A stretch of DNA of 21,656 nt from a virus. Each line of letters begins with the position of its first letter. The first letter of the stretch is position 1. The notes beneath the pieces are model-generated. The model made no database searches, was not told where the DNA came from, and saw only the letters and a list, made by a program, of their open reading frames with translations. A program made the translations under genes and the position numbers. The stretch is taken from positions 1 through 21,656 of IMG/VR virus record IMGVR_UViG_3300030202_000518. One strand, 5' to 3'. Positions 1,447 through 12,367 of this stretch are shown one piece after another.

Positions 1447-2523
1447 TTAGCCGACGGCAGGAGCCGTCAGCGCCACTGGAGTAGTCTCAGCAGATGCCAA
1501 GTCCAGTGGGAAGTTGTGGGCATTGCGTTCATGCATGACTTCCATACCGAGACCAGCTCGATTCAGGATGTCTGCCCACGTATTGATAACATGCCCTTGG
1601 CGATCAGTGATGGATTGATTGAAGTTAAATCCATTGAGGTTGAACGCCATGGTGGAGACGCCGAGGGCGGTAAACCAGATACCCACGACGGGCCACGCAG
1701 CAAGGAAGAAGTGGAGACTGCGGCTGTTGTTAAAAGAAGCATACTGAAAAATAAGACGACCAAAATATCCATGTGCAGCTACGATGTTATACGTCTCTTC
1801 TTCCTGTCCAAACTTATATCCTTTGTTATGGCTTACCTCTTCAGTAGTCTCACGGATAAGGCTGGAGGTAACCAGAGAGCCATGCATAGCAGAGAACAAA
1901 GCGCCGCCGAAGACGCCAGCAACTCCCAGCATATGGAATGGATGCATAAGGATATTATGTTCCGCTTGAAAGACCAACATATAGTTGAAAGTACCAGAGA
2001 TACCGAGCGGCATTCCGTCAGAGAAGGATCCTTGTCCAAAGGGATAGACAAGAAAGACGGCAGTAGCAGCAGCAACTGGTGCGCTGTATGCAACAAAGAT
2101 CCATGGGCGCATTCCTAGCCGGTAGCTAAGTTCCCATTCTCGTCCCATGTAAGAGAAAACACCGATAAGGAAATGGAAGACGACCAACTGATACGGTCCG
2201 CCGTTGTAAAGCCATTCGTCAAGTGAACCGGCTTCCCAGATGGGATAGAGATGTAGCCCAATTGCGTTTGAACTGGGTACGACAGCTCCTGAGATAATGT
2301 TGTTTCCGTACAGGAGGGATCCTGCAACTGGTTCACGAATGCCATCGATGTCTACTGGGGGTGCGCCAATAAAGGCAATGATAAAACAGGTTGTAGCAGC
2401 TAGCAGGGTTGGAATCATGAGGACTCCAAACCAGCCAACGTAAAGTCGGTTGTTTGTAGAGGTAACCCAGGAGCAAAACTCATCCCAGTTACTTCGTTGT
2501 TGTCTTGCAAGTGTTGTGGTCAT
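1447..2523 (-). CDS. psbA: Photosystem II reaction-centre protein D1
   Basis: A complete 358-aa D1. It binds the pigments, quinone and most Mn-cluster ligands of photosystem II in the thylakoid membrane; phages carry it to replace damaged host D1 during infection. Visible residues (about one behind the usual numbering): TyrZ Y160, D169, His ligands H197, H214, H251 and H271, S263 at the QB site, and the Mn-cluster C-terminus H331, E332, D341 and A343, followed by a 15-residue tail removed in the host. The sequence [11 protein letters not shown] places Glu at position 130, the high-light D1:2 type. Five transmembrane helices are evident. The ATG at 2523 is not preceded by a Shine-Dalgarno sequence. 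Upstream are hli and two tiny basic genes. Confidence 0.99.
1453..1468 (-). other. Hairpin at the 3' end of psbA
   Basis: GACGGC and GCCGTC form a 6-bp stem with a 4-nt loop within the last codons of psbA. No T-run follows. It may protect or pause the psbA message, or simply reflect the Ala/Pro/Gly codons there. Confidence 0.4.
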
Positions 2524-2781: not shown

Positions 2782-2841
2782 CTATTTCTTTTTAGGTGGA
2801 CGACCTTTCTTTGTTCCGTATGTTCCTTTACCTTGTGGCAT
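2782..2841 (-). CDS. 19-aa basic microprotein
   Basis: MPQGKGTYGTKKGRPPKKK, encoded in 20 codons, with its ATG overlapping the hli stop codon as TAATG. The same G-K-G-T-Y-G pattern followed by GRPPKKK is familiar from other phage genomes as an ultra-short frame. The tight overlap upstream and the 2-base gap to the next gene support it being translated. Function unknown. It is too short to be certain without comparison across phages. Confidence 0.6.
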   Translation of the reverse strand: MPQGKGTYGTKKGRPPKKK

Positions 2842-3011
2842 TACCAGACTCCAGGGATAAGTTGACCAGTGATTGCGTAAGCACCAAGAGCCGCCAAGAC
2901 GCCAAGCATAGCAAGACGACCATTAAGCTTCTCAGCCTTTTCATTGTGAGTTTCAGTTACATCCATGATTTGCATAGGTGGTTCGGTGGGCCAAATTTGT
3001 GTATCGTTCAT
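2841..3011 (-). CDS. hli: High-light-inducible protein
   Basis: A 56-aa one-helix member of the chlorophyll a/b-binding family that binds chlorophyll and carotenoid and protects photosystem II. The signature ExxNGRxAM is complete (E27, N30, R32, M35), followed by a transmembrane helix (about 33-48) and the ending TGQLIPGVW. I place the start at the ATG at 3011, which overlaps the upstream stop codon as TGATG; a slightly earlier in-frame ATG at 3023 would run into the preceding gene. The hli-then-psbA order in front of the capsid is the standard arrangement in marine T7-like cyanophages. Confidence 0.95.
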   Translation of the reverse strand: MNDTQIWPTEPPMQIMDVTETHNEKAEKLNGRLAMLGVLAALGAYAITGQLIPGVW

Positions 3012-3352
3012 CAGAACGTCCACTTGACACCTGCCTTGGTGCCATAGGAACTGGCTTCGTCGCCAGTCATGAACGAGACCTCACCATAGAGATCAACGGA
3101 TTCCGACAGAGCCATGGATGCACCGACCTTACCAGACAGTTCCAGCTCAGCATCTTCACCATCAGCACTGACGATAGCAGGACCGCCCTGGATATACCAG
3201 TTGTCGCCTTCGTAACCCACGTGATTATCAATAACGGTGGCACTGTAATCGTTACCAGACCAGCCAGAGTTCGCTTCTACATTAACGTACGGACCAGCAA
3301 TAGCGCCTTGAGCACAGCCGAGGAGGAAACCGGCAGCAATAATAGATTTCAT
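3011..3352 (-). CDS. Small secreted outer-membrane-barrel-like protein
   Basis: A 113-aa protein with a clear signal peptide (MKSIIAAGFLLGCAQGAIA, cleavage expected after residue 19). The mature part has alternating hydrophobic and polar strands typical of a small beta-barrel, ending GTKAGVKWTF, with the terminal Phe preceded by alternating residues that the BAM machinery recognises. Very similar short proteins starting GPYVNVEAN occur in other cyanophages. It would go to the host outer membrane, where it could alter the surface (for example superinfection exclusion or permeability); that role is inference. The start overlaps the lysozyme-like gene's stop codon by 4 bases (ATGA). Confidence 0.75.
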   Translation of the reverse strand: MKSIIAAGFLLGCAQGAIAGPYVNVEANSGWSGNDYSATVIDNHVGYEGDNWYIQGGPAIVSADGEDAELELSGKVGASMALSESVDLYGEVSFMTGDEASSYGTKAGVKWTF

Positions 3353-3801
3353 TGTAGTTTGTTTAGAAAAGAATAAGTATGTTTTGTTCGATTACCATGA
3401 ACACCCCAGCCTAACCAGTAGTATGCAGCATTCATATAGTAAGGGACTGTCTGATGGTTAGTCAGAAATGAGCTAAGGTCATCCCTAAATCTTAGCTCAT
3501 GAATCATGTAAGCTGTCTGACATTCTAAAGAACTAGGATCAGCATTCTGTTTAGCACAGAAAGTACCTAGTCCATCATAGCGATGCTTGGATGTCCATTG
3601 GATTATACCATAGCCACCCTTAAGACATTGATCGTAAGGGATGATAGCACCTCCCTGACAGACGCTTGATTTAAATGTTGACTCCTGATAGATGTTGCCC
3701 ATGATAACAGCAAGGGCAGTTCGATCTGTTACACCAGCAGAAGTCTGTAGTTGTTCTAGAACGTACTGCTCTTGTACAGTACATTGTGGGCATTCAATCA
3801 T
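3349..3801 (-). CDS. Lysozyme-like protein (phage tail-lysozyme fold)
   Basis: A 150-aa protein whose pattern NIYQESTF ... GYGIIQWT ... RYDGL is typical of the phage tail lysozyme domain (PF18013-type), a peptidoglycan-cleaving transglycosylase/lysozyme fold; E40 in YQES would be the catalytic acid. It has five cysteines (C4, C7 and others) but no signal peptide or membrane helix. It could be the endolysin, since no T7-like amidase is seen in this window, or a virion-associated wall hydrolase. The start overlaps the scaffold stop codon as TGATG. Located between head-assembly genes and an outer-membrane protein, an unusual place for a lysin in T7. Confidence 0.7.
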   Translation of the reverse strand: MIECPQCTVQEQYVLEQLQTSAGVTDRTALAVIMGNIYQESTFKSSVCQGGAIIPYDQCLKGGYGIIQWTSKHRYDGLGTFCAKQNADPSSLECQTAYMIHELRFRDDLSSFLTNHQTVPYYMNAAYYWLGWGVHGNRTKHTYSFLNKLQ

Positions 3802-6775: not shown

Positions 6776-6958
6776 TTAATTTTCCTCCATGTAACGCTCG
6801 ACCCACTCAACAACACTGCGTTGACCAGATCGGTACATAATTTTTTCCATTGTATCGTCAGGTGTAGGGTTGGTGGGTGGGAAAGTTTCTTCTAGTTGAT
6901 GGAGAAGACCACGGGCTTGCATGCCTACGGTCTCAAGCATACTGGGGGAGATTGACAT
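6776..6958 (-). CDS. 60-aa conserved cyanopodovirus small protein
   Basis: I set the start at the ATG at 6958 (MSISPSMLETVGMQARGLLH), overlapping the RNR beta gene by 26 bases; an open frame further upstream would be shadow sequence of RNR. The C-terminal segment DTMEKIMYRSGQRSVVEWVE with the acidic end RYMEEN looks conserved and helical. It sits between nucleotide-metabolism genes and head genes like the small T7 gp6.5-type genes. Function unknown. Confidence 0.7.
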   Translation of the reverse strand: MSISPSMLETVGMQARGLLHQLEETFPPTNPTPDDTMEKIMYRSGQRSVVEWVERYMEEN

Positions 6959-7649
6959 TACTATGCTCAAAGAAAGCTGGCATTCTAGCAGATTTAGTTG
7001 CAGACAATTCTGGGGCTCGGCCCTCATACATTAGCCGATCGCTAGAATCCAGCCAAAATTTTTTGTCTAAATATTTATCGGTAGTATTAATACTTAGTGG
7101 TTGCATTACCCAACTGATAGTTGCCTTCCTGAGTTTATCAAGAGAAGGACTGATGTTATACCCCAGCTCAGTATGAACCAGACTATTGGTAGCCACGTGA
7201 ATTTGTTCATCTCTAGAAATATCAGCAGAAACCGTTCTCATCCCAGCGTCACCATTAAAGCGGAAGAATGGTAGAAGAACGAAGAAAATCGCACGTTCGG
7301 CAACCATCGCTTTGGTGATCGTATGATCTGGATGTGTCTCCCAAGCGGTCCTAAGCCGAAGGGCTTCCGCCTCAGCCTTCTGATCAACACCGTAAGCATT
7401 GGCGATGTAACCAAGTGCGAGGTCATGGTTTTCTTCATCTTTAATGTTGGATTCCAATATTTCACGGGCCAACATTGGTACTTCACTATTGAGGGCATCA
7501 CTGATAAAATCTCCCACAGGTAGTTCCATATGTCGTAATGCAAGCGCACGGAGAATTGCTTCTTCGGCACCATCTTTGCATGTACCAGCAGTTGTCTGTA
7601 CTGGTGTCCATTTGCGCTTCCGCGCCATTAGTTTTTCGTAGGGGTTCAT
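6933..7649 (-). CDS. nrdB: Class I ribonucleotide reductase small (beta) subunit, Tyr-less type
   Basis: A compact 238-aa ferritin-like protein. Two ExxH motifs (E72-H75 and E148-H151), each with a Glu 30 residues earlier (E42 and E118), supply six candidate metal ligands. Beta subunits build the radical cofactor and pass it to the alpha subunit, here encoded immediately upstream with an ATGA overlap. The residue four after the first His, normally the radical Tyr, is Leu (L79). Typical bacterial beta proteins are 320-380 aa, so this is strongly reduced, as known for cyanopodoviruses whose RNR was once annotated as class II. The start at 7649 is chosen because it makes the coupled overlap. Confidence 0.85.
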   Translation of the reverse strand: MNPYEKLMARKRKWTPVQTTAGTCKDGAEEAILRALALRHMELPVGDFISDALNSEVPMLAREILESNIKDEENHDLALGYIANAYGVDQKAEAEALRLRTAWETHPDHTITKAMVAERAIFFVLLPFFRFNGDAGMRTVSADISRDEQIHVATNSLVHTELGYNISPSLDKLRKATISWVMQPLSINTTDKYLDKKFWLDSSDRLMYEGRAPELSATKSARMPAFFEHSNVNLPQYA

Positions 7650-9034
7650 TCTGCACAATCACATTGAGGTTCAGGTGCCTCGTCATAAAAAAGTGATTCA
7701 AGATACTTGTCAACGTCTTCTTCATCCAAAGCAGCATATGCACTTGACTTGTCTTGAACATCACCCATTACTTGGAGACTATAATAAAGAGAAGTCTGGG
7801 GCGATTCAAGCCACTCCTGGATAAACACCTCATCATACGTGACCACATCGGACCACGAATTGAAGCTGTAACCATGTAGAAGTCCAGTTCTATTAAGTAG
7901 AGTCATGATGCCATCGGCAACACGTTTGTAGGCTTCCCAGCCCACCTTAGAGGCGATCTCTACATCACCATAGTTGTAGGTTTGTACTCCGAAAGTACCG
8001 CTGTCGCGATCGACTGTCTGCGAGATAGGTGGAGCGATTTCTGGTGTGCAAGTATAGCCGTCCAGATCCACGCTTCGATAACTGCAACTGGCGGTTGGTG
8101 CAATAGCAAAGGCTCGAACCATGTTGTTACGGCGAGCAACTCCAGAGGCGAGATCAACACCAGCGGCAATTTGTGATACAAGTTCATAAGCGGGAGATCG
8201 GATAATTTCACCAGTGTTATATTGCTCTAGTGCTCGACCAAATTGATCGTATGTTACTCCATAGCGACGGAGTAAGTTTGCAAGCCCGAGCATTCCAAGA
8301 CCAACTTGTCTGTCGGTTTCACTTGGGAGATATTCTCCGCTGCTTCCGACACCTGTTTTACTATGGAGTTCGCACAGTTGGGACATACCTTCAAAGAAAG
8401 CGTTAGGGATGTCGTCGAACTCACAGGCACCGAGATTGATATGTTGGAGTAGACAGGTGCCTCGACTGGGCAAATACACTTCAAGGCACACGTTACCACG
8501 GATTCTTTTTCCTTCATTGTCATACTTTACTTTGTTAAGCCAAATGTCACCTGATTTAATGCCGAAGAGGAGTTCTTCCTTAAACGTACACCCCTCCCAC
8601 CATTCGGAGGTGATGTTGATGCATCTCTTAACCCACGGAAGTTCGGATCTAGGAGTGAGAATAAAGTCACGAGCATCAGGGTGGGATAAATCAAGGTGAC
8701 AAACAATCGCACCATTGCGATAGGTTCCACCGCGCCTGAGGATTTCATTTAACGTTGAGTAGATTTTAGCAAAGGATACTGGCCCGCTTGCAATAAGCTT
8801 GTCATTTCCTTTAACTGATTCTGTTCCTTTGGGTCGCAACTTCGACAGGTGGATCGCGCAACCTGCTCCATTTCGTAGAGCATGACTAGCAAATTTCCAG
8901 CTTGCTTCAATTCCATTTGGTCCCTCCATTGAGTCTTCAACGGTGAATACCGTGCACGACACCGGTAAGCGAGACGTTGGATTATCCATCCAAGATTGGA
9001 CACGTCCCGTGCGAGAAATATAAGTTGCAGTCAT
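7646..9034 (-). CDS. nrdA: Class I ribonucleotide reductase large (alpha) subunit
   Basis: A 462-aa catalytic subunit that reduces ribonucleotides to deoxyribonucleotides for phage DNA synthesis. Visible: C27 in the PVSC segment, the thiyl-radical Cys C183 in NVCLEV with E185, its disulfide partner C194 eleven residues later preceding the NLGAC segment, and PTASCSYRS. The C-terminus carries a C-D-C pair (458/460) in place of the usual wider-spaced redox cysteines. It is far shorter than E. coli NrdA (761 aa) and lacks the N-terminal ATP cone, so overall-activity regulation by dATP is unlikely. The ATG overlaps the MazG-like stop codon (ATGA). Confidence 0.93.
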   Translation of the reverse strand: MTATYISRTGRVQSWMDNPTSRLPVSCTVFTVEDSMEGPNGIEASWKFASHALRNGAGCAIHLSKLRPKGTESVKGNDKLIASGPVSFAKIYSTLNEILRRGGTYRNGAIVCHLDLSHPDARDFILTPRSELPWVKRCINITSEWWEGCTFKEELLFGIKSGDIWLNKVKYDNEGKRIRGNVCLEVYLPSRGTCLLQHINLGACEFDDIPNAFFEGMSQLCELHSKTGVGSSGEYLPSETDRQVGLGMLGLANLLRRYGVTYDQFGRALEQYNTGEIIRSPAYELVSQIAAGVDLASGVARRNNMVRAFAIAPTASCSYRSVDLDGYTCTPEIAPPISQTVDRDSGTFGVQTYNYGDVEIASKVGWEAYKRVADGIMTLLNRTGLLHGYSFNSWSDVVTYDEVFIQEWLESPQTSLYYSLQVMGDVQDKSSAYAALDEEDVDKYLESLFYDEAPEPQCDCAE

Positions 9035-9414
9035 GGTTTAATCAGATCGTTCAAAACAGGTGGTTGATAGTTTGGTCCTTTAAGAACCTTGCCGTCAGCA
9101 CGGCGCATAGGTGTACCATCCAAAGCAAGCTTGGACATATTTGATTTATGGACACGATCAAGGGCTTCCTCTAGATCCCACTCCATATTTTCAGCATATT
9201 GAAAGCAGACGTACACTAGATCTGCAAGCTCTTTTAGTTCTTCTGCGTAGCCTTCTCTAAGAGCTGCATACATGAACTCTTTAAACTCTTCAGCGATCAA
9301 ATCCCGTTGCATAGTCCGGTTGTCCATGGAATTGCTTACCCCATAGGCTGTCCTGAACTGTATCGCTTGATCTGATAGAGACTGCTTCTGTAGATGTTGT
9401 GTTGTCAAGTTCAT
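9031..9414 (-). CDS. MazG-like nucleoside-triphosphate pyrophosphohydrolase
   Basis: With the ATG at 9414 the protein is 127 aa. It carries the MazG/all-alpha NTP-PPase signature: EExxE at residues 42-46 and ExxD at 62-65 (ELADLVYV), followed by RVHKSNMSKL and GKVLKGPNYQPP, an ending typical of phage MazG-like proteins. It would hydrolyse (d)NTPs or an alarmone-like nucleotide and so modulate host physiology or clean the nucleotide pool; the substrate cannot be told from sequence. It overlaps the DUF3310 gene in another frame and is coupled to RNR. Confidence 0.85.
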   Translation of the reverse strand: MNLTTQHLQKQSLSDQAIQFRTAYGVSNSMDNRTMQRDLIAEEFKEFMYAALREGYAEELKELADLVYVCFQYAENMEWDLEEALDRVHKSNMSKLALDGTPMRRADGKVLKGPNYQPPVLNDLIKP

Positions 9415-9592
9415 TTTCAAGATAGTGGATAGCCTTTTTAATGTCAGCCGCTTTCGTCTCAGCAGACTTGTGACCGGCTCTGCAAATATATTTAATAGCA
9501 CAGCCTAGATGATAATTCAGTTCCCAGTCTCGGATTGCGTCCCAGCATTCGATCGATCCACGGGTGTAATAGGCTGGGGAGAAATGTGCCAT
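9290..9592 (-). CDS. DUF3310 domain protein
   Basis: A 100-aa protein. The N-terminal part, ECWDAIRDW ... NYHLGCAIKYICRAGHK followed by DIKKAIHYLENEL, matches the DUF3310 pattern found in many phages, including the C-terminal part of T7 gp1.7. The last 35 residues (after residue 65) overlap the start of the MazG-like gene in another frame by 125 bases, an unusually long overlap even for this genome. In T7 the related protein is a nucleotide kinase, so a role in nucleotide metabolism is plausible but not shown here. Confidence 0.85.
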   Translation of the reverse strand: MAHFSPAYYTRGSIECWDAIRDWELNYHLGCAIKYICRAGHKSAETKAADIKKAIHYLENELDNTTSTEAVSIRSSDTVQDSLWGKQFHGQPDYATGFDR

Positions 9593-9792
9593 TGTGCTAG
9601 TAGTTGTCCTACGTTGTTGGTTAAAATAAAATTAGTCTTTTGCAGTTGCAAGAATAGCTCAATCATTTGATCAGGTGGACACCTTTTTAGCAATTCTTGC
9701 ATCCTCTTTAGTTTAAACTCTTGTTCTAGAGTTATTTCAGTCACTGGCATTGGTGGGAGTCCATAGTATGGGTCTGTTTGTTTTGAAGTCAT
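9517..9792 (-). CDS. nblA: NblA-like phycobilisome degradation adaptor (candidate)
   Basis: A 91-aa protein. Residues about 19-67 begin with TLEQEFKLKRMQ, continue with PPDQMIELFLQLQ and end LLAQW. This follows the whole NblA helix-turn-helix pattern: LEQxF start, DQ after the turn, regular Leu spacing and a Trp ending. In cyanobacteria NblA bridges phycobiliproteins to the Clp protease so the antenna is broken down under nutrient stress; phage NblA proteins have been reported. The basic residue expected before the terminal Trp is Ala/Gln here. A 24-residue hydrophilic tail follows. The ATG at 9792 overlaps the exonuclease by 56 bases; M15 at 9750 is an alternative start. Function is inference. 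Confidence 0.65.
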   Translation of the reverse strand: MTSKQTDPYYGLPPMPVTEITLEQEFKLKRMQELLKRCPPDQMIELFLQLQKTNFILTNNVGQLLAQWHISPQPITPVDRSNAGTQSETGN

Positions 9793-10465
9793 AATCGTTA
9801 GCAGTTAGTATCTTAGCTAATCTAGCATTGAGTAGTGCTTCATCACTTGTAAGACCTTTGGACTCAAAAGCTTTTACAACGCTATCCCAAGTGTAGCCAT
9901 GTTCAGAAAAAAATTTTATGCTAGTTTTTACACCAAAACCGGGTGCACCAGAGTAACCATCTGTGCTGTCACCAGCAAGAGTTTGGATAAGAAACCATTC
10001 CCAACCAGATTGTTCATCTATTGTAAAAGTTTCATCTAGATTGTAGAGTGTACCGGGTATCTGTTTCATGTCCTTATCAGGGGACACAATAACACATTCA
10101 TCATTTGATGTGGCATAAATACCCATGGCATCATCTGCCTCTAGTTGTGGCGTTCTGATAACACGATAGTAGTCATGTAATTTATGAATTACACGCCTGT
10201 ATCCACAAGGTTTTTTACGATTACGGTGGCCTTTGTAGTTTTTGGCAATTGACTTACGAAAATTAACAGCATCACTAAAGAATAGAATAACATCAGCATT
10301 AAAGAAAGCTGATTTAATTTTATTTAATTCTCTAGTAACATTAGCATATGCTTCACTAAATCTACTACCGACCATGATCACATCATCGCCCCAGTCTATG
10401 TCATACTCAGCAGAAGCGCAGGCTTTATAGACAATGTAATCAGCATCGATTAGTAGAGTAGTCAT
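9737..10465 (-). CDS. 5'-3' exonuclease (FEN/T7 gp6-like)
   Basis: A 242-aa member of the PIN/FEN 5' nuclease family. Acidic metal ligands: D7 and D9 (LLIDADYIVYK), E109/D111/D112 (EADDAMG) and D130/D132 (SPDKDMKQIP). The helix-hairpin segment GDSTDGYSGAPGFGVKT follows. It would remove RNA primers and help degrade host DNA, as T7 gp6 does. The ATG overlaps the 40-aa upstream gene's stop codon (ATGA). Length is slightly under T7 gp6 (300 aa). Confidence 0.92.
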   Translation of the reverse strand: MTTLLIDADYIVYKACASAEYDIDWGDDVIMVGSRFSEAYANVTRELNKIKSAFFNADVILFFSDAVNFRKSIAKNYKGHRNRKKPCGYRRVIHKLHDYYRVIRTPQLEADDAMGIYATSNDECVIVSPDKDMKQIPGTLYNLDETFTIDEQSGWEWFLIQTLAGDSTDGYSGAPGFGVKTSIKFFSEHGYTWDSVVKAFESKGLTSDEALLNARLAKILTANDYDFKTNRPILWTPTNASD

Positions 10466-10584
10466 TTACCTTGTCCCCTACTCATCTTACGATCACCCCT
10501 AGGTTTAGATAGCTTACCTTGACCTTGAGATGTTTTCTTCTTAGTACTTTTAATTTCCTGTCCGTTTTTCTTTGAATAAAGCAT
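10462..10584 (-). CDS. 40-aa basic microprotein between polymerase and exonuclease
   Basis: MLYSKKNGQEIKSTKKKTSQ is followed by a GQGKLSKPRGDRKMSRGQGK C-terminus with a repeated GQGK element. The gene is linked at both ends: its ATG overlaps the DNA polymerase stop codon as TAATG and its own stop codon overlaps the exonuclease start (ATGA). This exact fit is the main evidence. Highly basic and probably disordered; function unknown. Confidence 0.65.
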   Translation of the reverse strand: MLYSKKNGQEIKSTKKKTSQGQGKLSKPRGDRKMSRGQGK

Positions 10585-11867
10585 TAATGGGTTTCACTCC
10601 AGTTGTTTCCGGTGGTTGCTTCCGCGTCGATGCGGATTCGCATGTTGTAGTACTCCCCAGCTGCTGTAGCGCTGTATACCAGGGATGTTGATAAATCTTC
10701 GGTGCACTCTGGGGCACACTCGAATTGAAGCTCGTCATGGATAAATCCTAATTGTGAGGCGCAAATGCCTATGTCATTCATTATGCCCTGGTTAATTACT
10801 AACCAACGCTTCGCGATTACACCGGCCCCCGACTGGAGGCAGTAGTTCAGCGCTTTGTGAGGTGAATCAACCGCAATTTTTCTACCATCGATAGACTTGA
10901 TGAACCCTTTTTCTGAAGCTTTTTTGATAGCTGTAAGTAGCTCCCCAAGTCCTTCAACCGCGTCAACATATGCTGCACGGATTTCTTTGCCTTTCTTTTT
11001 AGCTGCATTGGTAGGTAGTTGTGGATCAAAACTGTGTCCGATTTTTTCGTCACCTGCACCGTATAAAAAAGCATAGGTTACGGTTTTCACTTGTCGTCTT
11101 GAGATTCCGATCTTGTCAGCATTAATTTGGTGGATGTCATCCTCAAGTAATAGCTTTGCGTATCTTCCTTGATCATACCTTGCAAGATAATGAGCGAGCA
11201 TCCGAAGCTCGATACCACTAAGATCAGCACCAACCATACGTAAACCCGGACTTGGAATAAAGAGTCTTCTAAATCTTTCATCAGCGGGAACTTGAGCTAA
11301 ATTTGGAGATCGGTGGGCTGCTCTATGGGTATTAGTTGCGACAGAACAATGATGATGGATTCTACTAGCAGTCGTACATAGCTTGAGCCATGCGTTGGTG
11401 CCTTCGGAGATCATCCCCAAGCTCTTCGTAATATTTAGACATTTCAGAAACTCCAAAGCAATCGATGGTCCACCTGATGCAGCCATCTCCTTCAACACAA
11501 CTTCGTCGATAATCGGCTTCCCAGTAGGTGTCAGTTGCTTCGGATTCCAGCCATGAAATGTTTTGAGGATCCATGATATATGATCTCGTGATGTTGGGTT
11601 TAGTTCTTTTAGTCGTGTGAATGGTGCATCTTTGACATACCCCTGCGTTCGATTATTTCGTTTAGGAGTAAACTCTGATCCCGCAACGTAAGGGTGCCTG
11701 TCACGTAGTAGCTGATAAGTTTGCTCAAGCTCTCGTCTGAGAGTAGATGCAAGTTCCCATGCAGCGCGTTCATCAAAGTACCATCCATGCACCTCTTGGT
11801 TAGTGAGAAGTTGGGCGACTTCATGTTCTAATTTGACCCATTCAGGTATGGTTGAAAATGTTTCCAA
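10584..11867 (-). CDS. DNA polymerase, polymerase domain (family A, T7 gp5-like), separate frame
   Basis: A 427-aa frame with the complete polymerase domain: motif A with D215 (GADLSGIELRMLAHYLAR), motif B (R258, K261, Y269-G270 in AFLYGAGDEKIG) and motif C HDE at 377-379. The stretch matching the T7 thioredoxin-binding loop is much shortened (about residues 60-95), so a processivity clamp like T7's is doubtful. There is no ATG at the front: the first possible start is TTG at 11867, inside the exonuclease-domain frame, with no Shine-Dalgarno sequence. The domain therefore depends on a -1 frameshift, re-initiation, or correction of a one-base indel. See the exonuclease domain at 11828-12367. 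Confidence 0.9.
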   Translation of the reverse strand: METFSTIPEWVKLEHEVAQLLTNQEVHGWYFDERAAWELASTLRRELEQTYQLLRDRHPYVAGSEFTPKRNNRTQGYVKDAPFTRLKELNPTSRDHISWILKTFHGWNPKQLTPTGKPIIDEVVLKEMAASGGPSIALEFLKCLNITKSLGMISEGTNAWLKLCTTASRIHHHCSVATNTHRAAHRSPNLAQVPADERFRRLFIPSPGLRMVGADLSGIELRMLAHYLARYDQGRYAKLLLEDDIHQINADKIGISRRQVKTVTYAFLYGAGDEKIGHSFDPQLPTNAAKKKGKEIRAAYVDAVEGLGELLTAIKKASEKGFIKSIDGRKIAVDSPHKALNYCLQSGAGVIAKRWLVINQGIMNDIGICASQLGFIHDELQFECAPECTEDLSTSLVYSATAAGEYYNMRIRIDAEATTGNNWSETH

Positions 11868-12367
11868 AGTTTGTTAGTAACAACAACGTCTTGTATCATG
11901 TAATCTTGCATTTCTTGTGACCACTCCTTCCAATCTGTATCCTTACCAAACGTACCTTTATGTTCATCCAAACGATAGCCATAGGCTTCTAATGAATGAC
12001 GACCATACAACTTAAGAGGCATGTCTTTCCAGACACGTTTCTTATCTATGTCTAGTAAGTCTGGGTGATACAAACGACTGAGCAAAAGAGTATCCAAGCA
12101 ATCACCAATACGTCTAAACCAGGGGTATAATTTATTGATGATAGCAAGATCGTACCCAATAATGTTATGACCAATAAGACAATCAGCGTCTTCAAGGTAC
12201 TGAATACCTCTGACAATTGGTTCAGCAGCCTGTTTATCTGTTGCATGTTTAAAGGACTGATCATTGAACACCATTGTTTGGTCAGTTTCTGTATCATAAA
12301 TACAGAGACAGTGAATCTTGGTAGCATCACAGAGTAAACCGTCCGTTTCTAAATCAAAGACCAGCAT
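11828..12367 (-). CDS. DNA polymerase, 3'-5' exonuclease domain, separate frame
   Basis: A 179-aa frame equal to the N-terminal proofreading domain of T7 DNA polymerase. D5 and E7 (MLVFDLETDG) occupy the same positions as in T7 gp5, with further acidic ligands D73 (GHNIIGYDL) and D160 (QDVVVT). Near the point where homologs continue into the polymerase domain, this frame runs into LWKHFQPYLNGSN and stops at 11828, while the polymerase frame begins 40 bases earlier at -1. Adding one base to the T4 run (AAAA at 11855-11858 on the plus strand) would fuse both into one normal polymerase. The ATG overlaps the preceding microprotein's stop codon (TAATG). Confidence 0.9.
   Translation of the reverse strand: MLVFDLETDGLLCDATKIHCLCIYDTETDQTMVFNDQSFKHATDKQAAEPIVRGIQYLEDADCLIGHNIIGYDLAIINKLYPWFRRIGDCLDTLLLSRLYHPDLLDIDKKRVWKDMPLKLYGRHSLEAYGYRLDEHKGTFGKDTDWKEWSQEMQDYMIQDVVVTNKLWKHFQPYLNGSN

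Follow-up and report, generated by a model that had tools for sequence, protein, structure and literature searches.

Cyanobacterial NblA, a protein of about 60 aa, binds the chaperone ClpC near its N terminus and phycobiliprotein near its C terminus (PMC4103541). The gene is also carried by viruses, including the freshwater cyanophages Ma-LMM01, MaMV-DC, and PaV-LD, and in Ma-LMM01 it overlaps a ribonucleotide reductase gene (PMC4103541). PMC9602691 credits Nadel et al. 2019 with the prediction of nblA in 14 marine or estuarine cyanopodovirus isolates, places the marine cyanopodovirus genes in a cluster separate from freshwater cyanophage nblA, and describes phycobilin loss when freshwater phage NblA and NblA from marine viral metagenomes were expressed in model cyanobacteria. 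Most recently, many oceanic cyanophages were reported to encode antenna-degrading NblA (Nadel et al. 2025, Nature 648:434, as cited in PMC12892361).

Here, we studied a candidate phage nblA on a fragment of a virus genome, a 21.7-kb IMG/VR record that was analyzed over its whole length of 21,656 nucleotides (the window) and holds a single NblA-type copy. Because such genes have already been reported in marine cyanopodoviruses, this one is an ordinary member of the published marine cyanophage NblA family and will hold little surprise for a specialist in 2026. The 14 isolates would probably carry the same gene, since only one NblA match occurs per genome in S-TIP37, S-RIP2, MedDCM-OCT-S04-C24, and six other viral records.

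The window and its conserved gene slot

The window encodes the gene set of a T7-like cyanopodovirus (split DNA polymerase, exonuclease, ribonucleotide reductase, connector, and scaffold), along with hli, psbA, thyX, and a terminase fragment. Over 7 kb, the named phage nearest to it is MedDCM-OCT-S04-C24 (Pekhitvirus), an uncultured Mediterranean virus with 75.6% DNA identity, and marine Synechococcus isolates come next. Searches of the window with Rfam and for tRNAs gave no matches. The DNA polymerase (10584-12367, minus strand) is divided between two overlapping frames, one ORF encoding the exonuclease (12367-11828) and the other the polymerase (11867-10584); it is likewise annotated as split in S-TIP37 and P-SSP7, which could reflect a programmed frameshift or a true split. 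Elsewhere, a beta barrel resembling a cyanophage outer-membrane protein (3011-3352, minus strand; PF24653, E=1.1e-38) adjoins a phage tail lysozyme-like ORF (3349-3801).

The nblA-like gene occupies 9792-9517 on the minus strand, with both its ATG start and its stop inside these coordinates, and encodes 91 residues. Upstream is a T7-like, gp6-like 5'-3' exonuclease gene (9737..10465; phrog_107, E=4.6e-62; Pfam 5_3_exonuc_N), whose 3' end overlaps the nblA start by 56 nt (9737..9792, residues 1-19, including LPPMP). Downstream is a gene for a DUF3310 or nucleotide-kinase-associated small protein (9290..9592; PF11753, E=8.6e-10), which overlaps the nblA end by 76 nt (9517..9592, the stretch that encodes the 23-residue tail). 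A MazG-like nucleotide pyrophosphohydrolase (9031..9414; phrog_671; PRA-PH), a ribonucleotide reductase large subunit (7646..9034; phrog_367, E=3.5e-51), and a ribonucleotide reductase beta-subunit-like protein (6933..7658; phrog_6799, E=1.3e-134) follow. All of these genes lie on the minus strand, as do psbA, encoding photosystem II D1 (1447..2523; Photo_RC, E=5.3e-90; 92.5% identical to the D1 of S-SBP1), and a gene for a high-light-inducible protein, hli (2841..3023; phrog_178, E=1.1e-22). Gene order and profile matches thus agree with the initial annotation, which had placed the candidate directly before nucleotide genes and had noted psbA, found here at 2523-1447.

The same slot is used in S-TIP37, S-RIP2, and P-SSP7. 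Wherever enough flanking sequence was available, the exonuclease gene lies upstream of nblA (99/99 loci), overlapping it in the common cases, and DUF3310 lies downstream (114/114). No annotation marks the orthologue in the records of S-RIP2 and S-TIP37; elsewhere it is labelled P60_24 or exonuclease. Marine and estuarine T7-like cyanopodoviruses (S-RIP2, KBS-P-1A, S-TIP37, S-SBP1, and S-CBP4) share not only the slot but also the length class and the conserved residues, and the window protein is 42-46% identical to these orthologues.

When bacterial genomes were searched for a possible host source of the gene, only two MAG contigs (L120 and L121) came up, both with the order exonuclease-nblA-DUF3310-MazG-ribonucleotide reductase. 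Given this phage gene order, we rejected them as evidence for a host gene and consider them most likely misbinned cyanophage DNA. The contigs had been binned as Gammaproteobacteria and Planctomycetota MAGs, and L121 is quite divergent.

Membership in the NblA family

The residue pattern that first pointed to NblA is present in the ORF: TLEQEF at 21-26, DQ at 41-42, regular Leu spacing, and LLAQW at 64-68. The boundaries shift slightly, as the core ends at W68 rather than at residue 67 and is followed by a tail of 23 rather than 24 residues. The conserved N-terminal xxEQxF block reads LPPMPVTEITLEQEF in the window, and E23, Q24, and F26 are invariant across 67 relatives.

Profile searches were informative mainly when extended to these relatives. 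The window protein alone matches Pfam NblA (PF04485) over residues 20-65 with E=3.7e-4 and 21.3 bits, below the curated cut-off of 25 bits, so that the search proposed in the initial annotation yields a match of subthreshold score; the NCBIfam NblA model gives E=1.7e-5, with a score far below its cut-off of 100. Among orthologues, 13/14 match Pfam NblA (best E=8.4e-8), and five records with the gene in this slot, S-TIP37 among them, exceed the Pfam cut-off, reaching 33.7 bits. When a profile of the phage family was compared with all PDB chains, all four solved NblA chains (3cs5, 2q8v, 2qdo, and 1ojh) outranked the others with E-values from 2e-5, for 3cs5, to 0.01. Alignment of the phage family with host NblA in hhalign gave 96.7% probability and E=4e-10 over 58 columns, pairing LPPMP..TLEQEF of the phage with LPPLP..SVEQQF of the host. 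A host-NblA profile, built from three sequences, scored the real sequence at 16.9 bits, above all 16,888 scored shuffles (maximum 12.2). The window protein also matches PHROG 27006 (E=3.4e-9), a phage family of unassigned function whose library label is not NblA.

Cyanobacterial NblA (PF04485; 3cs5, 1ojh, 2q8v, and 2qdo) resembles the phage family in its LPPxP motif (present in the form from S. elongatus), its xxEQxF block, its layout of two helices (predicted for the phage protein), and its terminal LLK-type end; it differs in sequence (~19% identity), and the window protein lacks the Lys and has a tail. Taken together, profile, profile-profile, synteny, and selection evidence bear out the original identification, and sequence comparison supports placing residues 19-68 in the NblA family. 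It is the relatives that carry this identification, through the orthologue matches to Pfam, the family profile, and the profile-profile alignment. Such nblA genes are easily missed, both by annotation and by Pfam cut-offs applied to single sequences. The orthologue in P-SSP7 (3001-3312), the most divergent sequence, is without a Pfam NblA match.

AlphaFold2 places helices at residues 22-37, 40-53, and 55-67 of the window protein, with mean pLDDT of 61.9 over the full length and 71.8 over the core (about 60-80 across it). This prediction, of moderate confidence, is consistent with the expected helix-loop-helix, although Foldseek searches of PDB and BFVD with the full-length and core models, themselves of moderate confidence, returned no NblA structure.

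An ORF that overlaps both neighbours and was passed over in annotating S-RIP2 and S-TIP37 might be spurious, a chance frame between two overlapping genes. However, the frame is open in all 119 extracted locus sequences (66 distinct proteins; the 119 include repeats of one contig). The core (residues 19-68; 9589..9738, minus strand), which is the portion of the gene essentially free of neighbour overlap, differs from its closest relatives at 18-22 of ~30 synonymous sites and at 1-4 of ~117 nonsynonymous sites. This substitution pattern shows strong purifying selection on the core in the nblA frame, outside the overlaps. ORF 9792-9517 is a real gene, and the chance that it is spurious is close to nil. 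Alternatively, the product could be an anti-host or regulatory helical protein with a function unrelated to NblA, the likeness having arisen by convergence of a short two-helix protein. Its shortness, the weak single-sequence score, and a low-confidence model that found no structural match would all fit such an origin. Convergence would nonetheless have to explain why four independent NblA structures head the matches of the phage-family profile, why the LPPxP and xxEQxF block aligns with host NblA free of gaps, and why 13/14 members match NblA, and we regard it as highly improbable.

The C-terminal lysine and the tail

The initial annotation remarked that the residue before the terminal Trp, normally Lys, is replaced and that target binding might differ. 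The replacement is real, with Ala66 where a host NblA (LLKHQW in 1ojh) has Lys, and Ala occupies this position in the whole clade of the window; S-TIP37 has Thr. It is not special, as it recurs within the family. Leu64 is invariant among 67 distinct relatives, and position 66 is Lys in 43 of them; the remainder carry Ala, Thr, Gln, Ser, Ile, Val, Gly, or Glu. Parsimony requires 7 changes at the position on a weakly resolved tree. With Lys missing in about a third of relatives, we rejected the idea that its loss is peculiar to this phage. The Lys of the LLK-type end is a residue of the binding site, not a criterion of the Pfam NblA family. Bienert and colleagues are said to have described, in 2006, the importance of the C-terminal Lys of host NblA for phycobiliprotein binding. 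The replacement may tune binding, though it is not unusual.

The DUF3310 gene starts at 9592, within nblA codon 67, so the tail (residues 69-91) is read wholly out of frame from the DUF3310 start. Tail length among relatives ranges from 0 to 34 residues (11 in S-TIP37, 23 in the clade of the window), and tails of 10 or 23 residues occur on near-identical cores. In two loci (L037 and L038), a ~0.9-kb insertion with an HNH-like ORF parts nblA from DUF3310, and NblA ends one residue past the Trp where the insertion removes the overlap. Constraint in the NblA frame is weak across the tail (pN/pS 0.74, vs. 0.34 for the core). We conclude from these comparisons that the tail is a by-product of the overlap with the DUF3310 gene, because its length varies on near-identical cores, it is lost upon insertion, and it is weakly constrained. 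An added functional part, as the initial annotation had suggested, was rejected: the tail is absent without the DUF3310 overlap and dispensable in relatives. Since gene overlap shapes the nblA tails, differences in them are poor grounds for inferring a change of function. At the other end, overlap with the exonuclease gene likewise covers codons 1-19, yet their LPPxP motif also occurs in S. elongatus NblA. As a separate observation, the ~0.9 kb that lies 3' of nblA and before DUF3310 in L037, L038, and L069 carries two small ORFs beside the possible HNH endonuclease ORF.

Putative function and target

The gene very probably encodes a marine cyanopodovirus version of NblA, a Clp adaptor acting against the host antenna. 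It would be made together with the replication and nucleotide genes, and the protein would adopt a helix-loop-helix fold and probably pair, as host NblA does, into a four-helix dimer. The conserved N-terminal stretch would contact the host ClpC chaperone and the C-terminal end phycobiliprotein, so that antenna proteins would be handed to Clp protease, lowering host light capture and freeing amino acids, and phage PsbA and Hli would keep photosystem II running during antenna loss. ClpC and phycobiliprotein binding, antenna loss, and phage benefit are projected here from what the literature describes for other NblA proteins. By the same analogy, we infer that the window protein would degrade phycobilisomes, and it is plausible that this breakdown feeds phage synthesis.

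A related reading keeps the NblA ancestry and the Clp-adaptor role but moves the target away, at least mainly, from the phycobilisome, for example to another light-harvesting or photosystem protein or to free phycoerythrin. At the C-terminal binding end, Ala replaces the Lys throughout the clade of the window, the Lys was lost several times elsewhere, and an orthologue exists in a Prochlorococcus phage, as such a shift might predict. However, 43/67 relatives keep the Lys, the core is otherwise conserved, and the nearest phage isolates have Synechococcus as host, which bears phycobilisomes; these points make a changed target unlikely. We likewise give little chance to the more specific proposal that an oceanic podoviral NblA clade without the C-terminal Lys has shifted to another antenna or photosystem target while still serving Clp. 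Although a phycobilisome-directed adaptor remains our preferred reading, Prochlorococcus, the host genus of P-SSP7, lacks phycobilisomes. Since P-SSP7 has an orthologue, phycobilisomes need not be the sole target of the family.
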